Position numbers and translations under genes: made by a program. Source: a virus. From it: a stretch of DNA of 37,761 bases. The notes under the pieces were generated by a model. That model did not search any database and was not told where the DNA came from. It saw nothing but the letters and a program-made list of their open reading frames with translations. This document shows, one piece after another, positions 1-29,143 of the stretch (its first letter is position 1; each line of letters starts with the position of its first letter). The stretch is from positions 1-37,761 of IMG/VR virus record IMGVR_UViG_3300001847_000319, one strand, 5' to 3'.

Positions 1-348
1 CTCCTGGTTCTGTTCGAGTCCCTAAAGGTTTCAGGATACTCTTCCTCAGATATATCGACATCGTTCAAGAAGAAGATCCTTAGGAGATGGGAAAGATCGA
101 AGTTTCCTCAACGCCACGAGGATCTGTGGGATAAGGCTTCTGGCGCAACTTTCAGCTCCGGCATCGAGCTAGCGGTCCCAGAGATCAAGGAACATGCCGG
201 TGTAAAAGTATTAAGAAACGACGGACAGATAACGATAGATACCGCGCTCAAGATGGTAACAGACGACGACGTGATCGAGCGAATGATGCGCGAGTACGAA
301 GAGATCATGAAACAGGGTCCACGAGTCGGAGTGTTAGATGATGAGTGA
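1..348 (+). CDS. Unrecognised protein, 3' end only
   Basis: The reading frame is open from the first base to a TGA at 346-348, giving at least 115 residues with no start inside the window. The visible part is charged and mostly helical in character. It has a basic stretch near the left edge (FKKKILRRWERSK) and an acidic, Met-rich end (ERMMREYEEIMK, then VLDDE). The last 11 bases overlap the start of the helicase gene, so the two are probably translationally coupled. Its place just upstream of a replicative-type helicase suggests a DNA metabolism role, but I recognise no motif and assign no function. Confidence 0.8.
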   Translation, partial: LLVLFESLKVSGYSSSDISTSFKKKILRRWERSKFPQRHEDLWDKASGATFSSGIELAVPEIKEHAGVKVLRNDGQITIDTALKMVTDDDVIERMMREYEEIMKQGPRVGVLDDE

Positions 349-1930: not shown

Positions 1931-1931
1931 C

Positions 1932-2255: not shown

Positions 2256-2287
2256 AATCTAGAAAAGACAACGTATCGGAGACGACG

Positions 2288-3722: not shown

Positions 3723-3776
3723 GCTTTCTTTAAGTTAAAGTTTTAGTTAGTTAAAGTTATTAGAGTTCGGCAGAAA
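3723..3776. repeat. Direct repeat, copy A, bordering fibre cassette
   Basis: Two blocks recur at 4759-4839. The first is GCTTTCTTTAAGTTAAA at 3723-3739, then a near-identical TTTAGTTAGTTAA ending at 3754. The second, GTTATTAGAGTTCGGC at 3756-3771, covers the tandem TAA stops and the SAEL coding end. Together with the other copy it brackets the gene at 3760-4746. Confidence 0.75.
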
Positions 3777-4746: not shown

Positions 4747-4758
4747 ATCTTTAATCTC

Positions 4759-4839
4759 GCTTTCTTTAAGTTAAAATTTAGTTAGTTAAGGGCCGTCCAA
4801 ACTAGCCAGGCGACCTGAGTTATTAGAGTTCGGCGGAAA
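4759..4839. repeat. Direct repeat, copy B, bordering fibre cassette
   Basis: This is the second copy of the blocks at 3723-3776. GCTTTCTTTAAGTTAAA lies at 4759-4775, then TTTAGTTAGTTAA, and GTTATTAGAGTTCGGC at 4819-4834. Here the two blocks are separated by about 30 extra bases not found in copy A. Confidence 0.7.
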
Positions 4840-5949: not shown

Positions 5950-5973
5950 GTTTAAGTTATTAGGCGATGCGGA
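5950..5973. repeat. 24-bp direct repeat, copy 1
   Basis: This is identical over 24 bases to 7347-7370. It begins GTTTAAGTTATTAGG and covers intergenic bases, the tandem TAA stops and the codons for the C-terminal IRIA. Its inner 14 bases (TTAGGCGATGCGGA) recur at 3127-3140. Confidence 0.85.
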
Positions 5974-7346: not shown

Positions 7347-7370
7347 GTTTAAGTTATTAGGCGATGCGGA
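7347..7370. repeat. 24-bp direct repeat, copy 2
   Basis: Exact copy of 5950-5973. The spacing between copies is 1397 bp, so the pair exactly brackets the fibre gene at 5960-7321 plus its leader. Confidence 0.85.
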
Positions 7371-8166
7371 CTACCCAAAGTTCGTGTGAATTACTTGCAG
7401 AAGTACCAACGTCTATGCCACCATAAACGGAAACAGTAGTCCCGTCCGCAGACACAACAATTGGTAGACTATTAGTACAAGTCCCAAACACAGTGGTCGA
7501 CGCGTATCCTCGAGTAGATTGTGCTTCTACTGGAGTACCCCCTACTTGTAATATTGCATTCATGTTTAATGCAACGGAACCGGAACAATGTAATTTGTAA
7601 GAAGCAATATACACACCTTTGTTTAAAGATACACTTAATATGGTCGAAGGCGTCGTTGTTAGCGCAGTTATGCTTCTAGTTGAATAGCTAAAACCATTAT
7701 TACCGCTCCTAGGCGCTCCTACCATCTCCCCCACATACCCAGCGGGTACTGCACTTCCGCTAAGTGATCCAGCAATAGGCGTCCATTGATCTTCATCTTG
7801 TACGACAGAGTTCATCACATAGTTTATTGCAGCAGAACCCGACTGTGTTCTAAATGATCCGATCTGACGCCACTGCGTAAAACCAGTAGGACCAGTACTA
7901 GGTGCATTAACGCTCGCTACTAAGCCTACGACGTTGGCGCTTACTGCCGCGTAGACGTAATACAAAGTGTTTGCCGCTAAGGATCCGGTATCAAGTCCGC
8001 CTAAGCCGGTGCTAGCGGTACTAAGGATCAAAGCAGAGTTAAGCTTATATCCTTGGCCCATGACCTGCAGTCTCGTAGGCTGACCGAGGTAGGTAGCAGG
8101 AAGACTAACTTGGGTAGTCGAATCCAAGTTAAGGTACGGTATGTTCTCGCCTAGAAACTGTCCCAT
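7357..8166 (-). CDS. Tail fibre protein
   Basis: A 269-aa fibre protein. The N-terminal half includes LAANTLYYVYAAVS and FTQWRQIGSFRTQ, a strand pattern common in fibre proteins. At about residue 137 the SGSAVPAGYVGEMVG motif opens a C-terminal beta domain (LNKGVYIASYKLHCSG) ending in WVVRIA, homologous in layout to the tips of the 3127-3714 and 5960-7321 products. AAGGAT about 10 bases before the ATG is the ribosome site. As in those genes, the tip-coding part is more A+T rich than the start, pointing to exchange of the tip. Confidence 0.77.
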   Translation of the reverse strand: MGQFLGENIPYLNLDSTTQVSLPATYLGQPTRLQVMGQGYKLNSALILSTASTGLGGLDTGSLAANTLYYVYAAVSANVVGLVASVNAPSTGPTGFTQWRQIGSFRTQSGSAAINYVMNSVVQDEDQWTPIAGSLSGSAVPAGYVGEMVGAPRSGNNGFSYSTRSITALTTTPSTILSVSLNKGVYIASYKLHCSGSVALNMNAILQVGGTPVEAQSTRGYASTTVFGTCTNSLPIVVSADGTTVSVYGGIDVGTSASNSHELWVVRIA

Positions 8167-12280: not shown

Positions 12281-15200
12281 TCAGGTCATAGAAAGCAAAG
12301 ATCTTGCAAGTGCTTGCGCCGCTTCTATCCTGAATTCAAGCTTATCGCCGTCTACCAAGCCATCTTCGCGAGTTATGGTGATCTGATTAGAATCAGCACC
12401 TGCGCTGCCGACTTCTGAGTAGTCGTCTCCGCCTGGTTCAAGCAGCTGGCCGTTTAGGTAAACGCTTAGATAGCCTTGACCCACGACATAGTAACGGGTT
12501 GCACCGCCTGCGCGAGAGTCCACAGGAAGAGTTACTGTTCCGCCTGTTGCCAACGCACCAGACTGAATATATTTTTCGCGATAGATATTTGTGTTGACTG
12601 CTATGAACTGCGGCTGCATCGCGACCGTACTAGAAGACGTAGCGACGCCCAACATGAATATAGGGGTTCCGTACGTGGTCGGTCTTGTGCTGGTTACGCC
12701 ACCTGGAGTCGTTGGGTCAAAGTAAACCGGTTTGCCTACTGTCAAGCTACTGCTGCTAACCGTTGCGATACCTGCAGTTTGAACCTGACCTGAGGTGCCG
12801 TTTGCTATAGTCGCGTATGCGACGCCAACAAACTTTGTTGCACTAGCAAGCGTATTCGATGAAACTAGAGCGATCTGACCCGTAGTCGTATCGCCCGCAA
12901 CGATCGATCCTGCTGCGATGCTGGATCCACTGTTGTTAGTGAACGTAGATAATAAGTTAGGAACGCCTGACACAACAAGTTGATTACTTTGAATCTTTAT
13001 CGATGTTCCGTCTACAGCAATTTTTAAGCCGGCAGATCCGGTTACGATCGCGCCGGCAGCGTCAAGCTTTGCTCCTAGTTGGTTGGCGCTTATCTGAAGC
13101 GTAGGATTGCTTGATTCTAGATTTACACCTAAGCCTGAAGCACCTGATGTTATGGCGCGTGCTGCATCTAATTTGGCGTCTAACGCATTTGCTGTAATTG
13201 CTAAGCCTGGATTGGTAGCATTTAGGTTTACGCCTAAACCAGAAGCGCCTGACGTGATTGCTCTACTTCCATCAAGTTTAGTATCGAGTGCATTTGCTGT
13301 AATGGCTAAGCCTGGATTTGTGGCATTTAAGTTTACGCCGATACCGCTGGTGCCGGTGGTTATGGCTCTGCTACCATCTAGTTTTGCGCCTAGCTGATTA
13401 CTGCTTATCTGAAGTGTAGGGTTACTGGTCTCGAGGTTTACGCCGATACCACTAGCACCTTTGACGATGGCGCCCGATCCGTCTACTTTTACACCTAATA
13501 TGCTAGACGTGACCTGCATCGATGTAGCGTCGGTGTTTAGAATGATGCCTGTTGCATCGCGAGCCAAAGGTCCTGCTGCAGGCAGCATTACTCTCAGTGC
13601 TGCCGAGTTAAACTCAAGACCAGAGTTCGTATCGAGGTTCGTGAAAATAGTAGCGGTACTTATGCCGATACCGTTACCTGCAGTAAGGAAGGTACTTGGG
13701 TTCGTTATCGACTGCGTAATGTTTACGCTTACCGGCGTTTTACCTGGTCTAGCTTGGTTTAGGTTTCCGCTTGTGTCGATCCATAAGCCGTCCTTTGATC
13801 CAAGCGGATTTGCAGCCTGTTCCGTGAACGCGATACCAGTAGGATCGATAACGCCGGTCACGCCGAGATCGCCGTTGATCTGAAGCGCCTTATAGCCTGC
13901 GCTTGAGCTAACCGTCATAGGAGATCCGTCTATGGTCGTTACGGTTCTGCCTTGGTTATAAGCTTGTTGCAGTGTTGTCGTGGTTCCGCCGTCGATGGTG
14001 TAGATGCCGCCTTTTGAAGCAAGCCTGAAGCATAGAATATCGCCATCAACTAAACCATAATCGCGCGTAAAGGTCACCGAAGACTGCGCGGTATTTACGG
14101 TACCGTTCTCTGTGTAATCTTCGCCTACTTTCTGTCGCTGGCCGTTCAAGAATATCTCGAGCTGACCTGCACCTTTGATGTAGTAAGCTTGCACGCTTCC
14201 GTTTCTAGAATCTAGAGGAAGCGTCACAAGATACGGTGACGCGTGGTTGCCGGATACGGTGATGTACTCTTCATATATCGTGCTTCTACTGGTGTCTGCA
14301 TTATGATGACGCAGAAGAACGCCTGGTGTGCCTTGAACCGAGTAAAGAACGATAGTGTCTTGATTAGTTGGAACAGATGAGCTAGCAGTAACGTAGACGC
14401 TACCGGCTGCATCGCTATCTTCGTACGAAGACGAAGTCTGAAGGTTCGTGAAGGTCTTGTTTGCTCGACGGTTTATCTTTACCCAAGCAGACTGACCGTC
14501 GGTTATCGATATACCGCTCGTGAAGTTAGAAACATCGATGCGGTTGTAGTAATTGCTGCCAGGGATGTTGATGTAGACGTAGCCTATTGCAGTAAGGAAG
14601 TTTATCTTGCTGCCGTCATAATAAGTTCCTACTTGCTCGTTTACGATGATGTTCTTATTCTGAGTGATCTCAGTCTCGTTGCTCGTCCACGACGCAGCAG
14701 GATGTATGCGGTTGCCGTCCCACGTTTGAACGTATGAATCGCTTAATCGATAGAGAAGTACGATGCGGTTCTCTTGCAACAAATAATTTGAGTCAAATGC
14801 AACGACAGTAGGAGTAAGCGTGCCAGATCCGTTGCGATCGATATCGACTACTAGGGCAGTATTAACAGCCAACGGGTAAGGCGAAGACCAGGTTGCGGTT
14901 TGGCTAGAAGATCCAGGCTTAACGACGGTAAGATTATCGCCGGCTACTGTTATGAGCTGATTTGATCCAGACGTAGTGTTGCGGAACGTGGTCTTGCCGA
15001 TCAGCTTGATGCCGCGATCTTGCACACGATCCGCCATCATCGCAGTCAAGCGAGATACGCGAGCTGTCAGACTGTCGGTTGCAGAGCTATTGTAGTCCGA
15101 TGCACCTGCGAGCATGTTGTTGTTGACATCGCTCGGCACCACGTAAACTGGGTTAGTTTGAGCCAGCGAGTCCATACCGATAAAGCCGAGCAAGTTTTTC

Positions 15201-17140
15201 GTGTCCGGCTCGTTGATGTTGATGCTTTCACCCTGAACAACCTCAACCGATCCTAGGTCAGTCTTGAGGATGACTTTTGCGCACGTCGCGGTCGCATTGG
15301 TTACTATTGCTGTGCTAGTGCTTCCGCTGTACGGGATCTGAAACTGCGTGGAACTTCTTACGTTTATAAGATAGTTGCCGTTGACCGCGGTGTTTCCTGT
15401 TACACCAGCAATAGCGACGTTCTGACCATTAGCGAAACCATGGTTGGCGGATTCAATCTGAAAGGTACTTCCAGCAGTTCTAGCAATAGTCGTAACTACT
15501 GCCCACATCACAGTAGCAGTTACCGTGCCAGTTACTGTAGTTTGAATCGTTACTTTAGTCGAACTATATACCTCGACTACATAGGTGCCGTCGAATACTG
15601 TGCCGCCAGATATAACGATCTGATCGCCGTTATATAGACCGTGAGCACCGGTAAATGTAACCATGGCACTTTTGCCGTCTGCATTGTCTACGACAGAAGA
15701 AGTGTAATTTAAGATGGTGATTCCACCGACTCTTTGAATCGTATCGGATCGGTTTGCGAGCCAGTAAAGATTTCCGCCTGCGTTGTAAGTATTAAAATCT
15801 GTTCTGTCTGTTGTCTGTATCTCAGATCCAGAGTATACACCTTTTGTGTAAACTGCGTTCTCAAGTCCACCTAGTCCTGTATAGTTCTTCTCGAGCTGTA
15901 TCGATTTTGCTTCGCTAGGATTTGTAGTTACAGATCCACCGCCACTAGCTTCAGTCCAGAAGTTAACGACGCGAGTGTACATGTAATCGGGATCGCCTTT
16001 TGCCTTTACCCAGTCGCCTAAGTTGAGATTAGAGAAACCGCCAGCTATGATGCTTAAACCTACAGCAGGACCGTTGACGTAAACGCTGCTGTTGAAGAAA
16101 GTTACAGGAGTATCAAGCGGGTTGATCTTCTTGCTTCGCAGCATCTGTATCCACATGACCTGCTCGTTGAGCAAGGTCTTCGTTCCTGCTCTTACGATGA
16201 TCTCGCGCGGATCGTTCATCTTGCGATATACGATGTCCTCGGTCCAAGTAACTTGACCAACCGTACTGTTGCTGTGCTGCCATGTTCCTTTTGATTTTAA
16301 GCTGGAGCCAAGCGCATCATCGTAGACGTTAACTAAGCTAAGATCACTTGTGGTCTCGTACCAGTAAGTCGTACCTGACAACTCAGCCAGCTTCGTCATA
16401 ACGGCATCCATCCAGTCTTTTAAGGTCTGGATGTTCTTGTCACCGCCGAAGAAAGGTGTAGGAAACGACGGGCTGTTTATGGTTGACGAAGGTTCACTTC
16501 TAGCATACTGTGTTGATGGTAATGCTGGAAACTGAAAACGTGCGTTTGGGTCAGGAGAAGTTCCGCCGGTTCCAAGTCGGAACATAAGATTGCGGCAGTC
16601 AGTGATGTCAGTGATCGACGTGCTATAGCCAATCTTAGCGACCGGTATCGTGCCCTGCGGAAATCCTGCTGTCGATACTCCAGCTTGAACTACAAGTACG
16701 GCTTCTGTATTGATGGTCTGGTTGAACTCACCGCCCTCTCCGCCGTTTAGATCAACGTCCCAGAAGGCGCGTGTATCTTGTGCTGTTCCAGTAGTTGTTA
16801 GAGTCAAATATATATAGTTAGTGGCACCAGGGCGAAGTTCCTGACCTAAGACTAAAGGTTGAGATAGTGCATTACCTTCTGGAAGGCCAGAGAAAAAACT
16901 ACCAGCTGCTGATGTAGGATCATAAAGTACAGAATCTGCTACCTTTATAGATACACTGTTAGTGCCTATAGCGTTAGGAGCGTCAACAATCTCGAAGCCT
17001 TTGAGAATTATGGGTCTGCTGCCGACGAAACTTTTTACAAGTTCTTTAAAGTCAGAAGCAACATAAGATTGCACGGACAAGAAGTCGGCCAAGTCTACGC
17101 GCTGCTGCGAACCGACGAGTAAGCGCCCAAGAACGGCCAT
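12281..17140 (-). CDS. Giant fibre/baseplate-adaptor protein (1619 aa)
   Basis: A 1619-aa virion protein. The N-terminus (MAVLGRLLVGSQQRVDLADF, then IILKGFEIVD) resembles the baseplate-attaching start of large phage fibre/wedge proteins; a DUF4815-type relation is possible. Residues 484-622 hold two FCCH-like modules (GAHGLYNGDQIVISGG; NHGFANGQNVAIAG). Residues about 969-1040 and 1532-1607 are an internal duplication with LPxDSR, FLNGQ/YLNGQ, DYxE and GLVDGD. Between them, residues about 1200-1375 are 35-aa tandem repeats typical of a trimeric fibre shaft. AGGAG precedes ATG 17140; a 5-bp hairpin (17150-17162) abuts it. Its place after the gpI-position gene suggests it bridges baseplate and fibres. 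Confidence 0.75.
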   Translation of the reverse strand: MAVLGRLLVGSQQRVDLADFLSVQSYVASDFKELVKSFVGSRPIILKGFEIVDAPNAIGTNSVSIKVADSVLYDPTSAAGSFFSGLPEGNALSQPLVLGQELRPGATNYIYLTLTTTGTAQDTRAFWDVDLNGGEGGEFNQTINTEAVLVVQAGVSTAGFPQGTIPVAKIGYSTSITDITDCRNLMFRLGTGGTSPDPNARFQFPALPSTQYARSEPSSTINSPSFPTPFFGGDKNIQTLKDWMDAVMTKLAELSGTTYWYETTSDLSLVNVYDDALGSSLKSKGTWQHSNSTVGQVTWTEDIVYRKMNDPREIIVRAGTKTLLNEQVMWIQMLRSKKINPLDTPVTFFNSSVYVNGPAVGLSIIAGGFSNLNLGDWVKAKGDPDYMYTRVVNFWTEASGGGSVTTNPSEAKSIQLEKNYTGLGGLENAVYTKGVYSGSEIQTTDRTDFNTYNAGGNLYWLANRSDTIQRVGGITILNYTSSVVDNADGKSAMVTFTGAHGLYNGDQIVISGGTVFDGTYVVEVYSSTKVTIQTTVTGTVTATVMWAVVTTIARTAGSTFQIESANHGFANGQNVAIAGVTGNTAVNGNYLINVRSSTQFQIPYSGSTSTAIVTNATATCAKVILKTDLGSVEVVQGESININEPDTKNLLGFIGMDSLAQTNPVYVVPSDVNNNMLAGASDYNSSATDSLTARVSRLTAMMADRVQDRGIKLIGKTTFRNTTSGSNQLITVAGDNLTVVKPGSSSQTATWSSPYPLAVNTALVVDIDRNGSGTLTPTVVAFDSNYLLQENRIVLLYRLSDSYVQTWDGNRIHPAASWTSNETEITQNKNIIVNEQVGTYYDGSKINFLTAIGYVYINIPGSNYYNRIDVSNFTSGISITDGQSAWVKINRRANKTFTNLQTSSSYEDSDAAGSVYVTASSSVPTNQDTIVLYSVQGTPGVLLRHHNADTSRSTIYEEYITVSGNHASPYLVTLPLDSRNGSVQAYYIKGAGQLEIFLNGQRQKVGEDYTENGTVNTAQSSVTFTRDYGLVDGDILCFRLASKGGIYTIDGGTTTTLQQAYNQGRTVTTIDGSPMTVSSSAGYKALQINGDLGVTGVIDPTGIAFTEQAANPLGSKDGLWIDTSGNLNQARPGKTPVSVNITQSITNPSTFLTAGNGIGISTATIFTNLDTNSGLEFNSAALRVMLPAAGPLARDATGIILNTDATSMQVTSSILGVKVDGSGAIVKGASGIGVNLETSNPTLQISSNQLGAKLDGSRAITTGTSGIGVNLNATNPGLAITANALDTKLDGSRAITSGASGLGVNLNATNPGLAITANALDAKLDAARAITSGASGLGVNLESSNPTLQISANQLGAKLDAAGAIVTGSAGLKIAVDGTSIKIQSNQLVVSGVPNLLSTFTNNSGSSIAAGSIVAGDTTTGQIALVSSNTLASATKFVGVAYATIANGTSGQVQTAGIATVSSSSLTVGKPVYFDPTTPGGVTSTRPTTYGTPIFMLGVATSSSTVAMQPQFIAVNTNIYREKYIQSGALATGGTVTLPVDSRAGGATRYYVVGQGYLSVYLNGQLLEPGGDDYSEVGSAGADSNQITITREDGLVDGDKLEFRIEAAQALARSLLSMT
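13016..13540 (-). repeat. 105-bp tandem repeats (35-aa fibre-shaft units)
   Basis: The anchor GTTTACGCC or its variant ATTTACACC recurs at 13121, 13226, 13331 and 13436, exactly 105 bases apart, with weaker units on both sides. Each unit encodes a 35-aa pattern NPxLxIxxNxLxxKLDxxxAI followed by GxSGxGVNL. The two middle units are nearly identical in protein, which suggests recent duplication or gene conversion. Confidence 0.85.
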
Positions 17141-17236: not shown

Positions 17237-19387
17237 CTATAGGCCAAGAAGAATCTCATTCTCACTTGTCTCAGAGTACACGTCATATTCAGAATAATAC
17301 AAAGTTGGATATCTAATTATATACTTAAGAAACAAACCCACACTTTTGACTTGAGATATCAGATCTTGTAATATCTGTCGAGCCTTAGCTGGATCAGACA
17401 CGTAGAACGCGTATTCTTTTCCCAAACCACCCATAACAACGGCACCTTTTCTCCTGATGGCGGTAATAGTGGTTCCTACTGAGTGATTGTACTTAAAAAC
17501 ATAAGCTGGATCAAGCGCAATCATTCCACTTGAAGCCTTATAAAGATATCTAACAGGGCCTTCCTGAGAGTTTAAGCCATAGTCAAATATTATGTAACCT
17601 TCTTCGTTTGGAATATTATTTGGAGTGTTTATCTGAAGATTAAGAACGATGTTTCCTGCTCGTATCTCTTGCGAGCTTGTCCCTACATACGATGACACTA
17701 TAAAAGGAGCCAGTGTGTCGTACATATAAGGACCTAATATCCCTGAGTTTGCTATAGAAGAAGTGAGATAAACAGGAGATCCCGCATCTGCCAGACCGAT
17801 TCGCTCGATCCTAACGTTTCCACTACCTATAGGTGCGGTAGCATTACTACTAGATTGACATGTAAAAGTGTGATCGTCAACAACATCTATGACATCGAAT
17901 ATGCCGTTTAAAGAAGTTGCTGGACTAGGAACATTGTAGACCTTAACTGATCCTATAGCTGCTATTCGATGCGCAGTTGTAGTAGTTATAGTAAGTACGC
18001 CTTTAGAATCAGACTGCGCAGACGCGATCAAAAGTTCTTGAACACCTGCAGCTACAGGCAGAGATGGTGATATGCCAGATAATATATATCCGCCAGTGAC
18101 CTGTGTTTTTGACGTATAAGAGAACCTGCTATGATCGATGTCAAAGTTAGTATCGATGGTCTGAGTAGTAACTTCATCCACTGTCGGTGTTATTATGCGA
18201 CACTTAACTTCGTCTATGTGCTGTATGACAAACTGCCCACTACTAGGCCACTCATTGGCGCGATCGTCTACCGTTATCGACGTATCAGAGTTTCTAGTAA
18301 CCATATTGGTTACGGGACCGTTTAAGTGAGCTGATCCTTTAAGTTTTCTTCTTACAACAGGCGGAGTCGACGGCATCTCTATGATGATCTCTCCTGGAGT
18401 CACTTCCCATACCACAGAACGATTGTCGCGCGTGTATACCACAGACCTTTCAGGCCGCACAAATCTTACATAATATCCAGGATTTGTCGCATGATCAAAT
18501 GATCCAGGTGTAGCAAAAAGATTCTGAAAATCAAAGTATGAGTCTGCTATATTAACATTTAATATAGTAAAAGTCCCACTATTGCCAGGCATATCTATTA
18601 CAACGTTGTCTCCAACCTCTATTAAGAATAGGTTTGCGCCTGTTCCGCCTGCGTAAGTTAATCTAGCCGTATCGCCTATTTTACTAATAGTCCATTGCGT
18701 ATCTATTCCAGAACCAGCTCCGTCGACTATGCCAGGAAATTTAAGCGATATATCGGCTCTACCGCCTTTAATCTCAATAGATCCCTTAGATCCTATTGTA
18801 TTAGTAAACAGTCTAACGTAGTCGCGTCTTGCTACTTTATCGCTAAATACAACTGCAAAACTATGCTTAGCTTGACGATTTATTGCTGTTACTATTTCTT
18901 CTGCTGTTGCATTTAAAGGATCGTTGAAGTCGAGTGATGAGAAAATTATGTTTTCTTCATTTGATCCATCGATCAGATACTGAAGATCCCAGCTATCTTT
19001 AATTATAAAAGGACCGTAAACGCTAGTCTGCGTAAAAGCAGTTGTTGATTCTTTAAAAAAGAATATATCAAGTAACTGATCAACTATGCTTTTAACTTGT
19101 TTTGGTTGATAAGCCAATATGGGAACGTATTTTCTAAGTGTTGCGTCATCCATACCGACAACTTTAGGCCTGGATATCTTGTAATTTGCAGCAAGTCTGT
19201 CTAGATATGGCCTATAGGCGCTACTTATAAAAAATTGTTTTCTAACTTCTTCTATAAGATCGGCTATGTCTTGATCAGATTCGCCTATGGCCTCAATTAT
19301 AGCCTTCCAGTTAGGATTGACTCTGGTATTAAAATACGGATTAAGCTGATCGTGTAGGTTGTCTACGGCTTTGCGATTATTTGCCAT
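17237..19387 (-). CDS. Baseplate wedge protein in gpI/XkdU position
   Basis: A 716-aa protein directly downstream of the J gene, the position of gpI/XkdU. Its first 110 residues are helical (NPYFNTRVNPNWKAIIEAIG; AYRPYLDRLAANY), as expected of a wedge protein that docks on J. A middle module (about residues 165-215) has AEEIVTAINRQAKHSF and GSKGSIEIKGGRAD, a pattern also present in the J protein. An FCCH-like module with TTTTAHRIAAIGSVKV and LNGIFDVIDV spans about residues 459-529. The end is charged and aromatic (YIIRYPTLYYSEYDVYSE). GAGGTGAAAG precedes the ATG. It is several times longer than P2 gpI. Family membership rests mainly on position. Confidence 0.68.
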   Translation of the reverse strand: MANNRKAVDNLHDQLNPYFNTRVNPNWKAIIEAIGESDQDIADLIEEVRKQFFISSAYRPYLDRLAANYKISRPKVVGMDDATLRKYVPILAYQPKQVKSIVDQLLDIFFFKESTTAFTQTSVYGPFIIKDSWDLQYLIDGSNEENIIFSSLDFNDPLNATAEEIVTAINRQAKHSFAVVFSDKVARRDYVRLFTNTIGSKGSIEIKGGRADISLKFPGIVDGAGSGIDTQWTISKIGDTARLTYAGGTGANLFLIEVGDNVVIDMPGNSGTFTILNVNIADSYFDFQNLFATPGSFDHATNPGYYVRFVRPERSVVYTRDNRSVVWEVTPGEIIIEMPSTPPVVRRKLKGSAHLNGPVTNMVTRNSDTSITVDDRANEWPSSGQFVIQHIDEVKCRIITPTVDEVTTQTIDTNFDIDHSRFSYTSKTQVTGGYILSGISPSLPVAAGVQELLIASAQSDSKGVLTITTTTAHRIAAIGSVKVYNVPSPATSLNGIFDVIDVVDDHTFTCQSSSNATAPIGSGNVRIERIGLADAGSPVYLTSSIANSGILGPYMYDTLAPFIVSSYVGTSSQEIRAGNIVLNLQINTPNNIPNEEGYIIFDYGLNSQEGPVRYLYKASSGMIALDPAYVFKYNHSVGTTITAIRRKGAVVMGGLGKEYAFYVSDPAKARQILQDLISQVKSVGLFLKYIIRYPTLYYSEYDVYSETSENEILLGL

Positions 19388-19395
19388 CTTTCACC

Positions 19396-22300
19396 TCATG
19401 ATAAGCTTATAAGATCTGGCGATGTTATAGCTTTTTCGTTGTCGTAAATTGAAACTCTTTCCCCGTTGTTGTCAGGCGTAGTCTTTGTAATTGTTACAGC
19501 ATCTACGCCAGTAATATCTTTTACTCGTCTTACGATCTCGGACAGAACCACGTCTTGTCCAACGCCCAACGAAGATATATAACTAATAACTGTTGATTTA
19601 ATATCATTTGTAATATCGTTTAAATTTACACCATCTTTTGTAGAGATCTTCAGCGCAACGCTGATTTGTTTAACTAATGGAGGAAGTGACTCGATATTAG
19701 AGCCGACCGCCCGCCGTCCTGGGTATGTCTCAGAATCTGGCTCATATCCATCAATGATGCGCTGCACAGTTCGCATTAGCCCTGTATAGTAAGAATATCC
19801 GTCAACGCCTGTAGCAGTGTCTGTTGGGAAAGCTATCTTGCCCATCGACATTATTTTGGTACCATAGTCGCTAGACATTTTATATGATCTATCGCTTGTT
19901 GTTACGTATAGTATACGTTGATCGAAATTAAAACGGCTAATAGACGCGTTCTCGACTGTTCTAACTGTTTCGTATAAAGCAGAGCTGGATTCTAAAAGAT
20001 AAAAACCTGTTAAGTCTGCTGCCAAACTAACGCTAGTCTGCGATAGGCCACTAGTGTTTGTTACCTTAACGTATTGGCGACGATCTGTAGCATCACTTCC
20101 CCATTCAGTTGTTTCTCGTTTACCAGTATTTAACTTATTAAACCATGTGCTATCTGTTATAGAGTTTATAACAAGACTATCGCCTACAAGTGCAGAATCG
20201 CACTCGTATACCTGTAGATCGTCAATGTTAAGAAGTTCTGTCCCTAAGCCTACGCCGTTTTCAAAGTCTGCTACAAGACCAACGCTCGTGCTAGTTGCAC
20301 CTCTATAGGTTTGACCAAGCGTTACTGATGTAGCCAGTGACGGCGTTAAAGAGTTCATTGCAATAACTTGAACAAATGCTGCGTCATCATCGTCTATGCT
20401 ACGTATCCAAGATCCAACGCTAACGTTCTTAAAAGAGCCTGCAGTGCCAGAAACTGTACTCGAACCTGAGTTCCATGTTGCTGTAATATCTGTGTAGTTC
20501 ATTAACTTATAGGTATCGAGCTCTTCTTTTCCGTTTGCGTTTTGAATAACTATTGAATCGTTGTCAACTGACAATATTCTAAATCGACCCCTATTATCAG
20601 CTTTAAATGTGCTGCCTGAGATCTGAACGAAGTCATCGACGCAGACGCCACAGTCAGCAAACTTAGGACTATCGCCTAGTGCTGCCTGGATTCTGAAAAG
20701 ATCCTTGAAGCCAAGACTGCTTATCTTGTATCGCGTTGTTGTTGAGCTAGACAATGTGCAGTTACCGTTAGTCGTGCTCGCGCTGACGCTGGACAAGAAC
20801 TTAAAAGAAGTCGATGTTGGAGTCTCAGTTACAGTTACGGTTCCGTCGACGGTTCCGGTATCGCTGATGACCACGCTGTCGCCTATGCTGAAACCATGAG
20901 GAATCGACGTCGTTGCTGTAGCTGTAGTTCCGTTAAGAACAATAGTCGTAGCACGTCTAAGTGCAGAATGCTTAAGCCTGAATCTTGTGGATATAGCTGG
21001 TGATATTGACATCCCACCGGTTTCGCTGACGAACTTGTTGCTCATCGCTCTTCCGTTGGGATTTATGACGTCCATATAGCTGCTGCTTGGATTGACGCTC
21101 AGAACCGGAAGACCAGATACAGTGAGTGCACCTGAGGTTTGCGACTGATTGCCCATGGGCCAGTTTGCGATAAGGCTAGTGTCACCACTCTTTGGCCACA
21201 CGTTAACGATATCGCCAGGCTGAACGTTAGCAAGGCTTGTTCCTGAGGTAAGAGAAGAAACCATGAAAGATGCCAGATTTACGTCAGAAGACAACGCAGC
21301 AGAAAGCTTAGAAACAATAGTGTTTACAGAATCACCGCTCAGCACGCTTACCTTTGTCTTATAGGTTGCAAGATTATATGGTTTTCCAGCCATGTTGCTA
21401 GGAGTGGTTCCGGCTCCATCGACGTCGAACCATACCGCAAATGTAGGAGTGGATCCTGGCGAGTTGAAAGATGGACCTGTTATGACGAAGTAATCTGCTT
21501 GAGTTGGAACTTGATCGACGGTCAGAGACAACGACATCGGAGATGCGCTGTTGCCTTCAAAGAAGTCAAAAGCATGTATTCTAGTAGACAGTGACGTTCC
21601 ATCTGCCGCATATGCTTGAGTATGAGTGCTTTGTGCTTCAACCGAAGCAAGACTTCCGCCTACACTTACTGCATTTGAACCGGTACACTGAAATTGGAAC
21701 GTGTTGGTTCCAGGACTTAGAACGGTCCATGTGCCGTTCAAGGACGGAACATCGATGATGCCCGATATAACGACGATCTGTCCCGCAAGAAGGTTGTGAT
21801 TTGAAGAAAGCGTGACTGTCGCTGTGCTGTAAGGTGCGCCGTAAACTCTAGTTATTGAGCTGATGTTGTAGCTCTGCACAAGTCCGCTTACAACAGCCTT
21901 AGCACCAGACGGCGTATGCGCCCAGCGCCAGATGGTACCAGTTGCTGCACTATAACTAGAAGAAACATCGGTTATGTTCCAGCGAGTATACGGGTTAAAG
22001 TTAAACGCACGAGAGCCTATAAAATATTTAACATTACCAAGTGAGTCATTTTGAACTTGAACAGTAGTATTTAAATCTGGCAAAAACTTGCGTTTAGCAG
22101 GAAGATCGTTGTATATCTTGATCGTGTCTCCCTTACTGAAGACGTTTGGATAAGCTTGTACTGCTAATTTTAAGTATTCGATATTTGAGTCGGTATTTAC
22201 GTCAATACCAGCTGATCCTATTATGCTGAGCTCTGCCGAGTTAGCACGACCGCCTACGACCTCAACAGCGCCTGCTGTACCAAGTTTCTTTGACTTAATT

Positions 22301-25300
22301 TGTATCCTTCTAAAATCACCCGCAATATCCACGTCTGCAACTATAGGTAGCTGAGACATGGCTTTATGCGTAAGCTGATGTTTAACGTTGTCTACCGTCC
22401 TAGGAATCAATTTGAAAAACTCACCTACGTCAGTTGTTCCAGGATTAGGACAAGACGACATGTCGTAGATACTTGGTTGCAACCCTTGAAGTATCAAGCT
22501 TTTCTTTAGCACAAACTCTGGATCTGCGTTTGAAAAACTCTTAACAAAAGATTCGCCGTCGAACATCTTAACGAAGTTACTTAGACCTGACAATGGATCT
22601 GGATTGTGAGCGTACGAAACGGCAAGAAGCTCTTCCTTAGTCGCTGTATCGATAATATCAGTAGCGTTACCAACGTATGCGGCAGTCATAGTTTGGCTAG
22701 TATTTATAACATCGCATATGTCGCTTACTGCAGTCGACAACAATGGATATATAAGTATACCAGTGCTAGATGAAGTTATATTATAGCTATTATTTTGTCC
22801 AATTTGAGTTACAGCAACTGTAAAACCAGTAGCATAAGGCGAAACGCCATCAGAAGCTGTCCCTCTTGCGCCGTTGTAGTAATTTGATATCGTAACTTGA
22901 GATCCACTTGATATTGCAACAAACTCAGAATCAGCATTCATGTATGCAGCAATTTTACTAGCCACTGTATTGGCAGAGTCTGTTGAGTTTAATATAACCT
23001 GAATAGCTCTATCGCACCCATGGGGAGGAATAGCATCGCCGTTCACGTTCAGCCATACTGCGACGGTAGATGTGATGCCGTCGTATAATTTAAAATACTT
23101 ACCGCCAATAGGATTTCCGGAATTTGTCGTAGCAAAAGTAAAAGACGTACCAGACCCGTTAGATGCCGCAATAACTGGACCAATGAAAGAATTAGTAAGT
23201 GTAAAAGAACTGCCTGATGAGTACGTGGTAATAAATTGAGAGTCTGCATCTATAGCAGATGCTGTCGCAGATGCGACTGCACTATTAGAACTGGAACTTG
23301 TTAGTCCAGAGATCTTTATATATCTAATCGCACCAGGAACCGAAGGCGTAGGAGTAGAACCCGTCAAATCATACCACACCACAACAAGACCAGCTTGATC
23401 GTATATGTTAAAGTATCCGCCTGTTGTTATTGAGGAGCCAGACGTGACCGTAACGGTTTGCGTCATGTTTGTTCCAGCTGCTACAATATTACTAACCTGT
23501 GCAACGTCAACAACGCCTGCTGTAGTCTGTGTGGCATTTGGATTATATACGTCAACATATTTAAGCACATCGCTGACTGCATTTATTTTAAAAGTACCGT
23601 AGTTGCCTGGAGAAATACTGCTTCCTAACGTGCTTGCTATTGATAGTATGTCGCCAATATCAACTGTGCTTAGATCAATAGTAGATTCAAAACCGTATCT
23701 GCACATGTTTGTAGACATATTGAAAACGAATCCTAAACCACTTTGACTAGGCGCAGGAGTTGATATGTCGAAATTGTTAGTTATGGATACAACATTTTGA
23801 AAAGATGTGGCAACAAAACTGTCATCGTTGTCAATTGCAACAGCTGTTTTAGCAGCAACATTAGTCGCACTATCACCTGTCACGATAGATCCTATTCTCC
23901 AATATCGACTTACAGTAACGCCAGGAATAGACACTGTTGGCTGAGACGTGCTATCGTTATTTACAGCATACCAGAAAACGACCACGCTATTTGTGCTGTT
24001 GTATAGATAAAAATAATCACCACTTGATACTTGGCCAGTGCTTGAACCTTGTGCAGTCGTAGTAATAGTTTTGATATTGCGAACCGTAAATCTAGAACCA
24101 CTATTAAATCCAGTAGCTTTAGCGTCATCTGATCCAAAGTAATAAGTTGTTGTCGTGTATTCAGAATTGTTATCGTGTAATATTTTTGCTGATTGATTTT
24201 TATAAGAAGGATAATCGATGACAAATCTATGAGAATCACCGATTGGACCATATTCTTTTGCGCGCAATATCAAGGTTCCATCACTAGAAGAAACGCCGCC
24301 TGTTCTATACCAGTTGCGACTTCTAAACCATACTGCGTAATCATCAAAGTTTGTATTTATAGGAGATGAGGTCGACCATACTGTAGGGCTTCCAAAAGTA
24401 ACGCCTGATTCGTTGTCTGCATCATAAGCAGAAAATTGATTATTAGTAGGGGCTATAAAAGAACCTACTCTTCCTGTACGCCAAAAGTTTACGTTGATTG
24501 TTCTATTTACAGCGTCGTTGTCTAAGATAAATATAACTGAATCATCTGAAGAAAAAGTAAGAGATTTCACCAATTGAAGAGAATCACCAGAAAGATAATC
24601 AAAAGAAGCATTAGGAGTTGCATCGCGTATCTCTAAAATATTGCTAGGTTGAATCTCTACTGGGGTTTTAAACAGCGATTTATTGGCACCAGATGTGATG
24701 TTTACAACGTCGCTGTACGCAAGACTAGAAGTGTTAAATAAAGAAGAGCTTAACGAGGCAGCATTGTCAAGTGCATTAGCAGAGATACCACCGGTAACGT
24801 CTGCATATCTAACGCGATCTTTAAGAAGAGTGTTTGTACTTATTAAGTCGCCTACGCGCTCTATATATGAGCCACGCTTGAACCATGTAAGCATATCCGC
24901 ACTGGCAATTCTAGTTGCGACGTGAGATTGATTACCCAGCTCTGATCCTTGAGCTGTATCAAATATAAAGGACAACTTTCCTATAGAAACCGGCACAGCT
25001 ATTGCGCCATCGTTCTCTGTGGTGCTTGTCATCTTTAACGAGCTTGTCTTAAATATAGAACCTTTAACGTTTGCAAGATCACTGCCAAAAGACGATATCA
25101 TCTGCTGAAGAGTGATCGGCACAGAAGTTGAAACATAAGATGCTTTCCATATCTGCGGATACGCGTCAGATCCGAAGGTCTGAACGTCTTGCTCTAAGCT
25201 TGTTTTATGAAAGTCTAAAGCAGGATCCGCTGACGCACTTACGTTGATAACGTCAACGAAGGTGTCAACTCCAGATGTTGTGTGTTTGCCTTTTTTTACT

Positions 25301-27522
25301 ATCTTAAATAAACCGGTATTGTTTAAGCTAAACCAGTCAGCAGAAAGTTGCTTATACGCTATGTATATATAATCGCCTACCCTAGCATTCTGAAGTGTTG
25401 CGGTAGTATCTGCGAGTATGCGCATGCATCCCGTCTGAATAGACGAATTTCCAGGACTACTGTCTGTGGTTAGAATTTTAAGACCGCTACCTACTGCAGG
25501 CATGGCGTCTGATCTAGGCTCTACAGCGATTCCGTCTGCTACGACGACCATCTCCGATGGACGTCCGTCTCCGTCTGCGCTAAGATCATATGTTCCAGTA
25601 TTTGTCGATGCAGAGGTTACGTATCCTTTAGCATCTGCATTTCCAGCGGTGATAGAGTCGCCTTTGGTTGCAGGCGCGGTTAGCATGACATTTCCAGTCT
25701 GACGATTGATACTAAAATCAGACGAAGTACCTACATCGTAAGTAGGTAGTCCAGCAAACCAGTCATTTACGTATGTTCCACCGATAATCTCAATTGACGA
25801 TCCCGACCCAGTCTTATTGGAAGATATTTGAATCTTACCGTTGGATGTTGCTGTTGCTGTTATGCCAGCAAATTTAGAGTTAATTGCAGTAGCCCATTGA
25901 AGTGGCGATACTGCAGATATAGGTGTTCCACCAAAATCAGCAGTACTGAACGACTGATTCTGTGGAGGTGTTCCATCTACAGATATAACTAATGTTCCAT
26001 CCGTTATAAGCGATGTCCATGGTGCAGAAAGAGTTGTTAATGTTGCAACTCTTTCTTTTGACTTAAGAAGTACATTATTTTTATAAAGTGATATATATGA
26101 GTAAATATTAGTAGAAAATTTAATAGCATCGTTAGCATTAACGGAGCCACTTGAGAGTGTACCTAAAACTTGAATAAATTCAGCAGCTGAATCTGTTGGA
26201 TATAGAAGCAAGCGAGTAGATTCATCTGATAGTCTACAGCGAAAGTTGTAATTATTTATGTTTGCTTGCGTGTTGATTGCTGATGCTATCTCTACTAGGG
26301 TGGCAGATGCTACGTTTGCATAATCAGTCGAGTATATTATAATTTCTTGCTCAACGCCGTCTACCGAGACAACGAGCGTAGATCCTGCCGTAAGTTCTAC
26401 AGGTCCTGATACTTCATTTTTTACTTGAGATCTAGGAAGCGGATAATTCGACAACTGAAGAAACTGCTCTCCACCGCTAGCAGAAGTCAGCAAAACATCT
26501 ACTGACTGACCTTGAGTAGACGGCTGAAATCCAGATCCGTCATCCACGTACACTATCGAAGGCTCGCCATAAGCGGCTGGCTCTTGAATTACGGCCGATG
26601 AAACCTGCTTCCCATCGCTGGAGTCAGACACGCCTACTACAGCTGCCAAGATTGCAGCCCTTGTTCCACGAGAGAGTGTTGCTGAATAGTTTTTAAGTCT
26701 TTCGCGAAGGTCGTCGTCTGATTCCGTGTCGCGTCCGTCAGATAGAACCGACGTATTGGAAACTATCGCAGTGGCAAAAGGAAGCGCGTCAAACATCGTG
26801 ATCGAGTTAATGCCGGCATTACCCTGGACGCCTGAGTTTTCAGCGATTATCGAGATATCGCTCACGGTGTCTTCGCCTGCTGCCAGCACAGCATCGCGCA
26901 GCGTAATGTATCTGATCTCAGGAGAAAGATTGTTTGACGGTATCTTTACCGCAGTTCCAGACGGGATGAGGCGATCGATGGCTCCTTGAGCATCGATGAC
27001 CGTGTCTGATGTCAAATGGTCTTTCTGCAAGGCAGACGCAAGATTTATTGTGTAAAAACTTCCGTTACTAACTACGGATGTATACGATATCGGCCCTTCG
27101 AACTGCTGGGTGCCGCGACCTATAAACAATGTTCCAGTTGACGACCAAGATGAGGCGTCGTTTACGTATATCTTAGTGGCTCCAGCTATTGGGGCTGGTT
27201 TTACTGCATAAAGGGTAGTTGCACGCTTTGTGATACTAGAATCTTGTATCTTGATAAAACCAGTTGCTTTTACTGAAGTTTTTCTAGCAAGACCGTAGTC
27301 GGCGGCTCTTGCATCAAGATCAGAGTTCTTGAGTGCGTCTATGTTTAAAGTCTCTAATACGCTAAGTATGCTAGCGTTATTCTCGAAGTCCTGAGATGCT
27401 ACAGCTTCAAGCAGAGTCAACAAGACAGATCCTGGATTCAAGTCGTTAACAGGCGTATCTGCGATTATCTTGCGGGCCAGTTTTCCAAGAATCTCATTGT
27501 AACTTTGAAGACTTATAGCCAT
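19396..27522 (-). CDS. Giant baseplate J family protein (2708 aa)
   Basis: Baseplate wedge protein of the gpJ/gp47/XkdT family, greatly enlarged. N-terminal J features: helices with NDLNPGSVLLTLLEAVA (about 25-45), RLIPSGTAVKIPS (about 183), SGVQGNAGINSI (about 228) and DTESDDDLRERLKNY (about 262). The family's C-terminal helical-strand region appears only near residues 2610-2680 (VKQISVALKIS; SSLGVGQDVVLSEIVRRVKD; GVDAVTI). The roughly 2200 residues between are beta-rich and modular: four copies of one unit, two FCCH-like modules and several GSIEIxGG-type units. P2 gpJ is about 300 aa and T4 gp6 660 aa. The frame is uninterrupted, so it is probably one protein; processing cannot be judged. 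Confidence 0.85.
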   Translation of the reverse strand: MAISLQSYNEILGKLARKIIADTPVNDLNPGSVLLTLLEAVASQDFENNASILSVLETLNIDALKNSDLDARAADYGLARKTSVKATGFIKIQDSSITKRATTLYAVKPAPIAGATKIYVNDASSWSSTGTLFIGRGTQQFEGPISYTSVVSNGSFYTINLASALQKDHLTSDTVIDAQGAIDRLIPSGTAVKIPSNNLSPEIRYITLRDAVLAAGEDTVSDISIIAENSGVQGNAGINSITMFDALPFATAIVSNTSVLSDGRDTESDDDLRERLKNYSATLSRGTRAAILAAVVGVSDSSDGKQVSSAVIQEPAAYGEPSIVYVDDGSGFQPSTQGQSVDVLLTSASGGEQFLQLSNYPLPRSQVKNEVSGPVELTAGSTLVVSVDGVEQEIIIYSTDYANVASATLVEIASAINTQANINNYNFRCRLSDESTRLLLYPTDSAAEFIQVLGTLSSGSVNANDAIKFSTNIYSYISLYKNNVLLKSKERVATLTTLSAPWTSLITDGTLVISVDGTPPQNQSFSTADFGGTPISAVSPLQWATAINSKFAGITATATSNGKIQISSNKTGSGSSIEIIGGTYVNDWFAGLPTYDVGTSSDFSINRQTGNVMLTAPATKGDSITAGNADAKGYVTSASTNTGTYDLSADGDGRPSEMVVVADGIAVEPRSDAMPAVGSGLKILTTDSSPGNSSIQTGCMRILADTTATLQNARVGDYIYIAYKQLSADWFSLNNTGLFKIVKKGKHTTSGVDTFVDVINVSASADPALDFHKTSLEQDVQTFGSDAYPQIWKASYVSTSVPITLQQMISSFGSDLANVKGSIFKTSSLKMTSTTENDGAIAVPVSIGKLSFIFDTAQGSELGNQSHVATRIASADMLTWFKRGSYIERVGDLISTNTLLKDRVRYADVTGGISANALDNAASLSSSLFNTSSLAYSDVVNITSGANKSLFKTPVEIQPSNILEIRDATPNASFDYLSGDSLQLVKSLTFSSDDSVIFILDNDAVNRTINVNFWRTGRVGSFIAPTNNQFSAYDADNESGVTFGSPTVWSTSSPINTNFDDYAVWFRSRNWYRTGGVSSSDGTLILRAKEYGPIGDSHRFVIDYPSYKNQSAKILHDNNSEYTTTTYYFGSDDAKATGFNSGSRFTVRNIKTITTTAQGSSTGQVSSGDYFYLYNSTNSVVVFWYAVNNDSTSQPTVSIPGVTVSRYWRIGSIVTGDSATNVAAKTAVAIDNDDSFVATSFQNVVSITNNFDISTPAPSQSGLGFVFNMSTNMCRYGFESTIDLSTVDIGDILSIASTLGSSISPGNYGTFKINAVSDVLKYVDVYNPNATQTTAGVVDVAQVSNIVAAGTNMTQTVTVTSGSSITTGGYFNIYDQAGLVVVWYDLTGSTPTPSVPGAIRYIKISGLTSSSSNSAVASATASAIDADSQFITTYSSGSSFTLTNSFIGPVIAASNGSGTSFTFATTNSGNPIGGKYFKLYDGITSTVAVWLNVNGDAIPPHGCDRAIQVILNSTDSANTVASKIAAYMNADSEFVAISSGSQVTISNYYNGARGTASDGVSPYATGFTVAVTQIGQNNSYNITSSSTGILIYPLLSTAVSDICDVINTSQTMTAAYVGNATDIIDTATKEELLAVSYAHNPDPLSGLSNFVKMFDGESFVKSFSNADPEFVLKKSLILQGLQPSIYDMSSCPNPGTTDVGEFFKLIPRTVDNVKHQLTHKAMSQLPIVADVDIAGDFRRIQIKSKKLGTAGAVEVVGGRANSAELSIIGSAGIDVNTDSNIEYLKLAVQAYPNVFSKGDTIKIYNDLPAKRKFLPDLNTTVQVQNDSLGNVKYFIGSRAFNFNPYTRWNITDVSSSYSAATGTIWRWAHTPSGAKAVVSGLVQSYNISSITRVYGAPYSTATVTLSSNHNLLAGQIVVISGIIDVPSLNGTWTVLSPGTNTFQFQCTGSNAVSVGGSLASVEAQSTHTQAYAADGTSLSTRIHAFDFFEGNSASPMSLSLTVDQVPTQADYFVITGPSFNSPGSTPTFAVWFDVDGAGTTPSNMAGKPYNLATYKTKVSVLSGDSVNTIVSKLSAALSSDVNLASFMVSSLTSGTSLANVQPGDIVNVWPKSGDTSLIANWPMGNQSQTSGALTVSGLPVLSVNPSSSYMDVINPNGRAMSNKFVSETGGMSISPAISTRFRLKHSALRRATTIVLNGTTATATTSIPHGFSIGDSVVISDTGTVDGTVTVTETPTSTSFKFLSSVSASTTNGNCTLSSSTTTRYKISSLGFKDLFRIQAALGDSPKFADCGVCVDDFVQISGSTFKADNRGRFRILSVDNDSIVIQNANGKEELDTYKLMNYTDITATWNSGSSTVSGTAGSFKNVSVGSWIRSIDDDDAAFVQVIAMNSLTPSLATSVTLGQTYRGATSTSVGLVADFENGVGLGTELLNIDDLQVYECDSALVGDSLVINSITDSTWFNKLNTGKRETTEWGSDATDRRQYVKVTNTSGLSQTSVSLAADLTGFYLLESSSALYETVRTVENASISRFNFDQRILYVTTSDRSYKMSSDYGTKIMSMGKIAFPTDTATGVDGYSYYTGLMRTVQRIIDGYEPDSETYPGRRAVGSNIESLPPLVKQISVALKISTKDGVNLNDITNDIKSTVISYISSLGVGQDVVLSEIVRRVKDITGVDAVTITKTTPDNNGERVSIYDNEKAITSPDLISLS
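21235..24021 (-). repeat. Four copies of an ~85-aa module inside the J protein
   Basis: Copies lie at about 23770-24021, 23170-23421, 22870-23106 and 21235-21495 (diverged). Each starts with a YF-(K/N/Y)-(L/I)-Y or YFVI strand, then V(V/A)(V/F)W(Y/L/F), a Pro-rich turn, a strand, DSxxxVxxKxxxAxxxD, and in the first three a final strand with (T/S)N. Protein similarity is clear, but the DNA copies have drifted. Confidence 0.75.
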
Positions 27523-27532
27523 TACCTGCCTC

Positions 27533-29143
27533 TTACTGCGGTACGTTTACGCTGAAGGATATGGGAATAACGTTGCCTGCGCCTCCGGCAAGAACAACAC
27601 CAAGTTTTATCATATAGCCAGAAGGCCCAACAGATCCTTGGCTTAGATATTCTACCGTTAAGAACTCTAATCTACTGAAACGAGGGTCGCTAGTTATCTG
27701 TCTAGATATGTTTTCAGCTATGGTGGCCCTAAGCCCATCTGGATCGACGTTGCGTATTCCGGCAAAATCAGGAATACCGTACTCGAAGTGTCTAATGAGA
27801 CTACCCGTAGAAGTTGACATTAGTATCTTTAGGGCCTGCATAGCGTTGTCTGCACCGTACGAAAGCCTAAAATCGCCGGCTTCGCTGATCGCTATATCGC
27901 CATCGTTGCTTAATAAAAAGTCAACACCCGCACTCTTCTCGTCTTCTCCCTTGTTGCTCAAGAACCAGGGCGTGGGTTTGTTAAGTTCTGCTGGAGCTGG
28001 ATTGTCCGATGGGATTAAAACGTAAAAATTACTGTTGATCGTATTTGGTGCAAAGACCCTAATATAAGCGTTATCTGTAGACTTATATTTATCTAAGTCT
28101 TTAGATCCACTTAGTTGAATAATTAGTTCGCCAGACACAGGAATTTCTTTTATGGCTATTATAGTTCTTTGATCTGGCATCACTTCAACGTCTGATTGAA
28201 GTATAACTATTTGATTTATATAAATTTTATCTTTATTTGGCATCGAACTAGAATCTGTAGCCGCTATGTTAACGGTATCGCTCCTAGCACTCGACGCAAG
28301 CGGTATCTTTATCCCTACTTCGTCTATGTACGGAGGCTTTAAACCGTTAGCGATGGCTATCTCTACCCATCGCTGCTCGTCGCCCATAGTTCTTAAAGCT
28401 AAAGTTTGGAGCGATTCATTATAGTTAAGTTTAACAAGTGATCCGGAAGAATAGGTCTTTATATCTATTGCAGGGTTGTTCGCGTTTGCTCTAGCGAACG
28501 CAAAGGGATCAACATATGCCGAAGAGTTTAAGATGGTCTCATTCGCCAGTATTGACTCTATTAAGTATAGTGACTGATGAAAAAGATACGAAGTGGATAT
28601 TTCTGGTATCGACTTATTTAAAAGCTTAGGCAAAGAACTTCTATTGTATATGTCGTTGTACGTTGCATCGGATGCACCGATAGAGTCCGCTATAGCATCA
28701 CGTCCTGCGATTATCAGTTTTCGCAAGTTTAAAAATGTGTTCTTTTTAAAGCTGTTGACTCTATCGATCTCTGCTTGAACAAGATCTTCTTCTGCGTTAG
28801 AAGCGTTGAGATCGTTCACGTACATATTATCAAAAACAGAATAATAAGATGCCACCATGCTTTTGTTGTTGGCAGCTTGTTTTACAGTCGTAGTTTGTGT
28901 CTGCATGATACTTACAAACTTATCAAACTCGTCTAGTTCGTGCGTGAACTTTTTTAAATCATAATAGTCAGATGCATTAGATACGACAGTGTCCCTTATC
29001 GAACTCCAGTTGTCTAGTATGTATTGAAAACGCAAGTTTGCTATTGCAGGAACATCTGACAACTTTAAGCTATCGCCGCTCTGAACCTTAGTCCAAAGCG
29101 ACAAGTCTGATAGTGCTCCATATGCTGCGTTTATGGCGTCCAT
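27533..29143 (-). CDS. LysM-like / gp25-like baseplate wedge fusion
   Basis: A 536-aa baseplate protein. The C-terminal 120 residues (about 413-536) carry the gp25/gpW-like signature: FRLSYGADNAMQALKILMST, RHFEYGIPDF, then a helix and ITSDPRFSRLEFLTVEYL. This family forms the wedge-sheath contact in contractile tails. Residues about 230-278 look like a LysM-type module (YNESLQTLALRTMGDEQRWV, IAIANGL, GIKIPL). The first 200 residues are helical with no recognised fold. Stand-alone gp25 proteins are about 130 aa, so this is an extended fusion. The start ATG shares one base with the preceding stop (TAATG). Confidence 0.8.
   Translation of the reverse strand: MDAINAAYGALSDLSLWTKVQSGDSLKLSDVPAIANLRFQYILDNWSSIRDTVVSNASDYYDLKKFTHELDEFDKFVSIMQTQTTTVKQAANNKSMVASYYSVFDNMYVNDLNASNAEEDLVQAEIDRVNSFKKNTFLNLRKLIIAGRDAIADSIGASDATYNDIYNRSSLPKLLNKSIPEISTSYLFHQSLYLIESILANETILNSSAYVDPFAFARANANNPAIDIKTYSSGSLVKLNYNESLQTLALRTMGDEQRWVEIAIANGLKPPYIDEVGIKIPLASSARSDTVNIAATDSSSMPNKDKIYINQIVILQSDVEVMPDQRTIIAIKEIPVSGELIIQLSGSKDLDKYKSTDNAYIRVFAPNTINSNFYVLIPSDNPAPAELNKPTPWFLSNKGEDEKSAGVDFLLSNDGDIAISEAGDFRLSYGADNAMQALKILMSTSTGSLIRHFEYGIPDFAGIRNVDPDGLRATIAENISRQITSDPRFSRLEFLTVEYLSQGSVGPSGYMIKLGVVLAGGAGNVIPISFSVNVPQ

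Follow-up and report, generated by a model that had tools for sequence, protein, structure and literature searches.

The window analysed here, a stretch of 37,761 nucleotides of viral DNA of environmental origin (IMG/VR record IMGVR_UViG_3300001847_000319, positions 1 to 37,761), encodes a tail baseplate J protein about five times the usual J size, in which recognisable J-family ends flank a giant insertion of beta modules. The gene is one unbroken frame on the minus strand with an ATG at 27522 and a stop at 19396-19398, and its product has 2708 aa and a mass of 286.7 kDa. An independent contig (L004) was identical to this protein over residues 1-2460, and every complete relative had a single uninterrupted frame, which together exclude an assembly artefact or chance. 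The 2708-aa J protein proposed at 19396-27522 in the preliminary description was thus borne out. The gene order around it was hub, spike, tube initiator, gp25-like protein, J, gpI-like protein, and fibres, and the gp25-J-I order is shared with HRTV-25. The main features were as follows.

19396..27522, minus strand: giant J-family baseplate wedge protein, 2708 aa (open reading frame, PF04865, PHROG 6)
26518..27522, minus strand: N-terminal J part, residues 1-335, helices and J core (PF04865, PHROG 6, fold)
26980..27231, minus strand: small first insertion, a beta domain, residues 98-181 (absent from the compact relatives L052-L054, present in L051)
19843..26502, minus strand: giant insertion, residues about 341-2560, 235 kDa (comparison with relatives, mass calculation)
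19399..19842, minus strand: C-terminal J part, residues about 2561-2708 (profile and fold match)
27533..29143, minus strand: gp25-like baseplate protein, 536 aa (PHROG 975, GPW_gp25)
17237..19387, minus strand: gpI-like baseplate protein, 716 aa (PHROG 1160), with IN-like, small-barrel, and FCCH modules as in J
12281..17140, minus strand: fibre protein, 1619 aa, with FCCH and PFKNV modules (Pfam, module profiles)

The profile search separated the two J ends from the insert. Pfam Baseplate_J (PF04865) matched the protein above the cut-off (E = 7e-13) in two collinear pieces, namely model positions 30-132 at residues 179-286 and positions 179-253 near the C-terminus, the latter lying below the Pfam cut-off when taken alone (E 2.2e-5, 18.3 bits). 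When the relatives were searched with profiles, PF04865 was found at E<0.01 in 43 of 43 homologous N-terminal halves and in 30 of 44 C-terminal halves. PHROG 6 (baseplate wedge) also matched the protein (1.6e-21), with its best stretch at residues 184-399. Profiles of the ends were needed, since the whole protein gave no match to the PDB by direct sequence comparison; no NCBIfam match was obtained either.

AlphaFold models built on 43 and 44 aligned viral sequences covered residues 1-1165 and, distally, 1540-2708, and their confidence was moderate (pLDDT 72.5 and pTM 0.36 for the former, 78.6 and 0.67 for the latter). Residues 59-335 superposed on A-1(L) gp31 (8kea_d, Z 13.4), phiCD508 gp65 (9g8s_A, Z 13.1), phi812 ORF62 (Z 12.1), Mu gp47 (Z 10.4), and T4 gp6 (Z 8.8). 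Residues 2614-2708 superposed on J C-terminal domains including that of phiCD508 gp65 (Z about 9-11, rmsd 1.8-3.0) and that of phi812 ORF62 (9euf_I, Z 10.7, rmsd 1.8), and the C-terminal domain of pyocin PA0618 (5ces) gave Z 9.3. Both ends therefore matched the same solved wedge chains, such as 9g8s_A and 9euf_I, and the J core and C-terminal domain were likewise shared with phi812 ORF62 (9euf), phiCD508 gp65 (9g8s/9gb2), A-1(L) gp31 (8kea), and Mu gp47 (9ki1), which are about 350-390 aa long. Both ends belong to the J family by profile and by fold, which makes this a true J-family wedge protein (gpJ, Mu gp47, T4 gp6-like) from a contractile phage tail.

The insertion lies at one place in the J fold. 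The motifs YVDDGSG (residues 325-331) and YYTGL (residue 2578) are 2246 residues apart, in accordance with the preliminary estimate of about 2200 inserted residues, whereas the YVDDG strand and the Y.YY.GLI helix are separated by 95-178 residues in four compact relatives that share both J ends (L051-L054 from viral contigs, with open frames of 510-635 codons). The J proteins of HF2, HRTV-25, LysYB1, phiMa, and PHB04 (354-411 aa) have essentially no residues at this site. By fold comparison, the J protein of phiCD508 was aligned up to residue 248 and again from 282, and that of phi812 up to 233 and from 257, so that about 2280 residues separate the aligned parts in the window's protein versus 24-34 in these two phages. 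The site of the giant insert is a naturally variable point within J. A motif near residue 605 (LN..tG.i.l) was suggestive of the giant block being nested inside the small middle domain of the compact relatives; the similarity was not significant, and this arrangement was not adopted. The small first insertion at residues 98-181 resembled K1 lyase and tail-tube domains in fold (Z about 10), and lies at roughly the same place as residues 81-180 of A-1(L) gp31, an insertion domain that in that phage contacts the hub and also holds a fibre (PMC10966104).

The module families of the giant insert were found with iterated profiles, whose matches to IN-like modules 1 and 2 span residues 385-454 and 513-583, and are arranged as follows.

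26101..26433, minus strand: IN-like module 1, residues 364-474 (profile; Vibrio flagellin domain fold, Z about 10)
25720..26058, minus strand: IN-like module 2, residues 489-601 (profile; 7kh1_A6, Z 11.7, rmsd 2.3 over 104 residues; FliD D2-D3, Z 8-9, and FliD 6kty, Z 9.3)
25228..25428, minus strand: small beta-barrel module 1, residues 699-765 (profile)
24979..25131, minus strand: IN-like module 3, partial, residues 798-848 (profile)
24208..24555, minus strand: LDND module, residues 990-1105, a single copy in every relative (profile)
23749..24021, minus strand: WYDVD module 1, residues 1168-1258, missing from most relatives (profile)
23524..23712, minus strand: small beta-barrel module 2, residues 1271-1333 (profile)
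23155..23421, minus strand: WYDVD module 2, residues 1368-1456 (profile)
22846..23103, minus strand: WYDVD module 3, residues 1474-1559 (profile)
22246..22422, minus strand: IN-like module 4, residues 1701-1759 (profile)
21664..21819, minus strand: FCCH-like beta-barrel 1, residues 1902-1953, its site empty in nearly all relatives (profile, fold)
21208..21501, minus strand: WYDVD module 4, residues 2008-2105 (profile)
21052..21264, minus strand: small beta-barrel module 3, residues 2087-2157 (profile)
20773..20919, minus strand: FCCH-like beta-barrel 2, residues 2202-2250 (profile)
20512..20733, minus strand: small beta-barrel module 4, residues 2264-2337 (profile)
20278..20481, minus strand: PFKNV module, residues 2348-2415 (profile; also in fibre protein P0004, residues 346-426)
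20044..20199, minus strand: small beta-barrel module 5, residues 2442-2493 (profile)

The predicted folds agreed with a block of beta modules. IN-like modules 1 and 2 share their fold with flagellin, FliD D2-D3, and a phage tail sheath domain, and differ from these in being repeated inside a wedge protein; one relative also gave a Pfam Flagellin_IN match. The FCCH barrel (residues 342-424 of the distal model) matched the FCCH domain of the UBA6 E1 enzyme (Z 10.8, rmsd 1.9) as well as a domain of the phi92 endosialidase (4hiz, Z 9.7), and the Pfam FCCH family (PF16190) matched the window's protein weakly, below the cut-off (E 0.12). Neither Pfam nor the top fold matches revealed a convincing carbohydrate-binding or enzyme family in the insert, most of whose domains were barely tested. 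Single, weak, and isolated matches to Toxin_R_bind_C and Peripla_BP_4 in relatives were set aside. Modules of the J insert also occur in the gpI-like protein and the 1619-aa fibre, so baseplate and fibre genes have them in common.

Scans of viral contigs yielded 44 distinct complete giant J proteins (less than 95% identity, counting those of the window and of Myxococcus phage Mx1) of 1845-2730 aa with a median of 2376, plus one of 3881 aa, and the contigs carrying the relatives reach 165-176 kb. Bacterial and archaeal genome contigs scanned with the N-terminal profile gave no cellular homologue at the sensitivity used. Across the relatives, the scaffold of the insert was conserved: the LDND module was constant and the IN-like set nearly so (2-4 copies found), with gain and loss concentrated in hotspots at residues of about 1150-1300, 1850-2050, and 2150-2250. 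The number of WYDVD copies varied from 0 to 8 and tracked protein length (r = 0.91, and 0.85 within the close clade, both computed across relatives uncorrected for shared ancestry), a correlation by which the count of inserted modules, WYDVD above all, would determine the length of the arm. The longest relative, the 3881-aa J in L114:42-11687 (the record behind L030), carries the WYDVD module eight times; in G002 (L115) this gene is divided in two, with products of 850 and 3009 aa.

Proteins of this kind have already been deposited in databases as 'baseplate J-like'. The 'baseplate protein J-like protein' of phage Mx1 (WNM70274.1, OR576727) has the same architecture from end to end at about 30% identity, with the J ends, four IN-like modules, the LDND module, and FCCH and small barrels; it differs in its length of 1925 aa and in that no WYDVD or PFKNV modules were detected. 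A 'Baseplate protein J-like' of an uncultured Caudovirales phage (A0A6J5KUV1; BFVD piece 2, 1189 aa) showed 34% identity and aligned with the distal model over 1146 columns at a TM of 0.59. BFVD also holds other J-like proteins of more than 1000 aa. No paper on giant J proteins or on Mx1 was found in the literature.

Next to its closest relative, the N-terminal J part retained 78-95% identity, and most of the insert 57-82%, falling to 43-47% at residues 1901-2100. The corresponding values were 80% for the gpI-like protein, 73% for the gp25-like protein and the spike, and 60-63% for the hub (60%) and the tube initiator (62%). Among the fibres, two proteins (62-66%) have diverged no more quickly than the insert, and the downstream fibre protein P0010 retained 32%; this comparison covers only some of the fibres, as the loci of the closest relatives stop before the last fibre genes. 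Synonymous sites were saturated, and hence only nonsynonymous differences were used in place of a dN/dS ratio. These differences amounted to 0.19 for the giant J overall, 0.08 for the J core, and 0.18-0.30 for the insert, with a maximum at residues 1851-2260 (pN 0.30). The low nonsynonymous difference despite saturated synonymous sites shows that the insert is maintained as protein, with purifying selection throughout the giant J. Judged by the same sequence comparisons, the insert on the whole is no more variable than internal tail parts such as the hub and the tube initiator.

J belongs to the iris through which contact with the cell is coupled to contraction of the sheath. On balance, we favour an account in which the giant J has a ring core and a long arm of modules with a platform role, a reading that rests on anatomy and evolutionary rates. 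The J core of about 490 residues, identified by profile and fold, would build the baseplate ring as in other phages, and about 2220 residues of beta modules would leave and re-enter the ring between this core and the C-terminal domain, so that each copy would bear a long multi-domain arm. The arms may build a skirt or platform around the periphery, bracing the baseplate and seating the several fibre proteins encoded next door, and they may also touch the cell surface as a secondary contact and swing outward as the ring opens on firing. Insertions in J serving as an outer structure or a fibre holder have precedents in the cage of Alg11 (PMC8894135) and the insertion domain of A-1(L) gp31 (PMC10966104). 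The ring probably contains two J copies per wedge, by homology with the (gp16)2-gp17 wedge of XM1 (PMC10457771) and the (gp31)2-gp32 wedge of A-1(L) (PMC10966104). With copy numbers taken from these homologues, the calculated mass of J is 1.7 MDa at 6 copies and 3.4 MDa at 12; the very large added baseplate mass foreseen in the preliminary description thus stands in principle, if the protein enters the ring like other J proteins.

That description also offered a built-in adhesin array, in which the arm tips (WYDVD and FCCH modules) would be the primary receptor-binding part and gain avidity from their many copies. The gain and loss of modules in discrete hotspots, the divergence of residues 1851-2260 relative to the J core (pN 0.30 versus 0.08), and the phi92 endosialidase match of the FCCH-type barrel would fit such an array, whereas the insert as a whole is not hypervariable and is under purifying selection, Pfam found no receptor- or carbohydrate-binding family in it, and several separate fibre genes lie downstream. 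The insert changes at about the rate of the hub and tube initiator while P0010 is far more variable, which argues for a built-in peripheral arm rather than a primary adhesin; we regard the array as unlikely, and primary host recognition is more likely to belong to the downstream, faster-varying fibre genes. A decorated collar, suggested in the same place, is a possible reading of the insert.

The insert could also enclose the central spike and open as a second trigger of firing, as in AlgoCIS Alg11 (7aeb) and Anabaena Cis11 (7b5h), which are likewise J-like wedge proteins with large insertions, and whose insertions surround the spike as a cage (PMC8894135, PMC8894136). A massive insertion in a J-family protein and the precedent of cages with stepwise firing (PMC8894135, PMC8894136, PMC13314943) speak for this arrangement. 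However, the giant insert is six times larger than that of Alg11 (about 366 residues, 278-643, with carbohydrate-binding folds), and showed no CBM match among the Pfam hits or top fold matches. The insertion sites also appear to differ: Alg11 residues 155..809 align to model positions 83..264 (first and last aligned residues only), which would place its domain IV (278-643) before the giant insert, near the small 98-181 domain. We therefore consider a spike cage improbable. Cleavage of the product, or release of the insert after assembly, would leave an ordinary-sized mature wedge, and large phage precursors are sometimes processed; this general precedent is what favours it, whereas the frame is uninterrupted in all complete relatives, and the one gene that is split, in G002, is matched by an intact, closely related gene in L114. 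Such processing seems very unlikely.

The range of 300-660 aa that had been given for known J proteins needs correction, as the J-like chains of contractile injection systems reach about 1000-1230 residues (7aeb_G 1011, 7b5h_AH 1227). The giant J is accordingly an extreme case and not a class apart. Returning to the peripheral arm, we tentatively suggest, at a lower level of confidence, that a widespread group of phages may have a baseplate ring bearing as many as twelve very large arms, two for each wedge, that emerge from one point of the J fold, with a length tuned by module gain and loss (whole protein 1845 to 3881 aa), and thus a baseplate periphery that has no described counterpart. A ring protein of five to eight times the normal size would mean that the baseplate can be enlarged far without loss of the ring. 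The conserved insertion site and the variation of length by module count mark the giant J family, whose members, from the 1925 aa of the named phage Mx1 up to 3881 aa, form a natural series for studying the role of J insertions beyond what the cages of contractile injection systems have shown.

Several other genes of the window showed features of their own. The 1619-aa fibre (12281-17140) contains a cement-protein-like stretch and, in five places, matches to the repeat model of the avian adenovirus fibre (E 2.6e-31). Three late proteins (3127-3714, 5960-7321, and 7357-8166) have a common ...RIA ending and may share a C-terminal fibre-tip domain; the last of these, a tail protein, matched the second domain of Bordetella phage Mtd just below the cut-off (E 6.9e-5). 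Two adjoining proteins at 3760-5905 have FRN..INGxx-type motifs near their start, one with a weak match to the carbohydrate-binding family CBM_4_9. Genes for a DnaB-like helicase and for a small M78-type peptidase-like protein lie at 338-3051 on the plus strand, opposite the tail genes.
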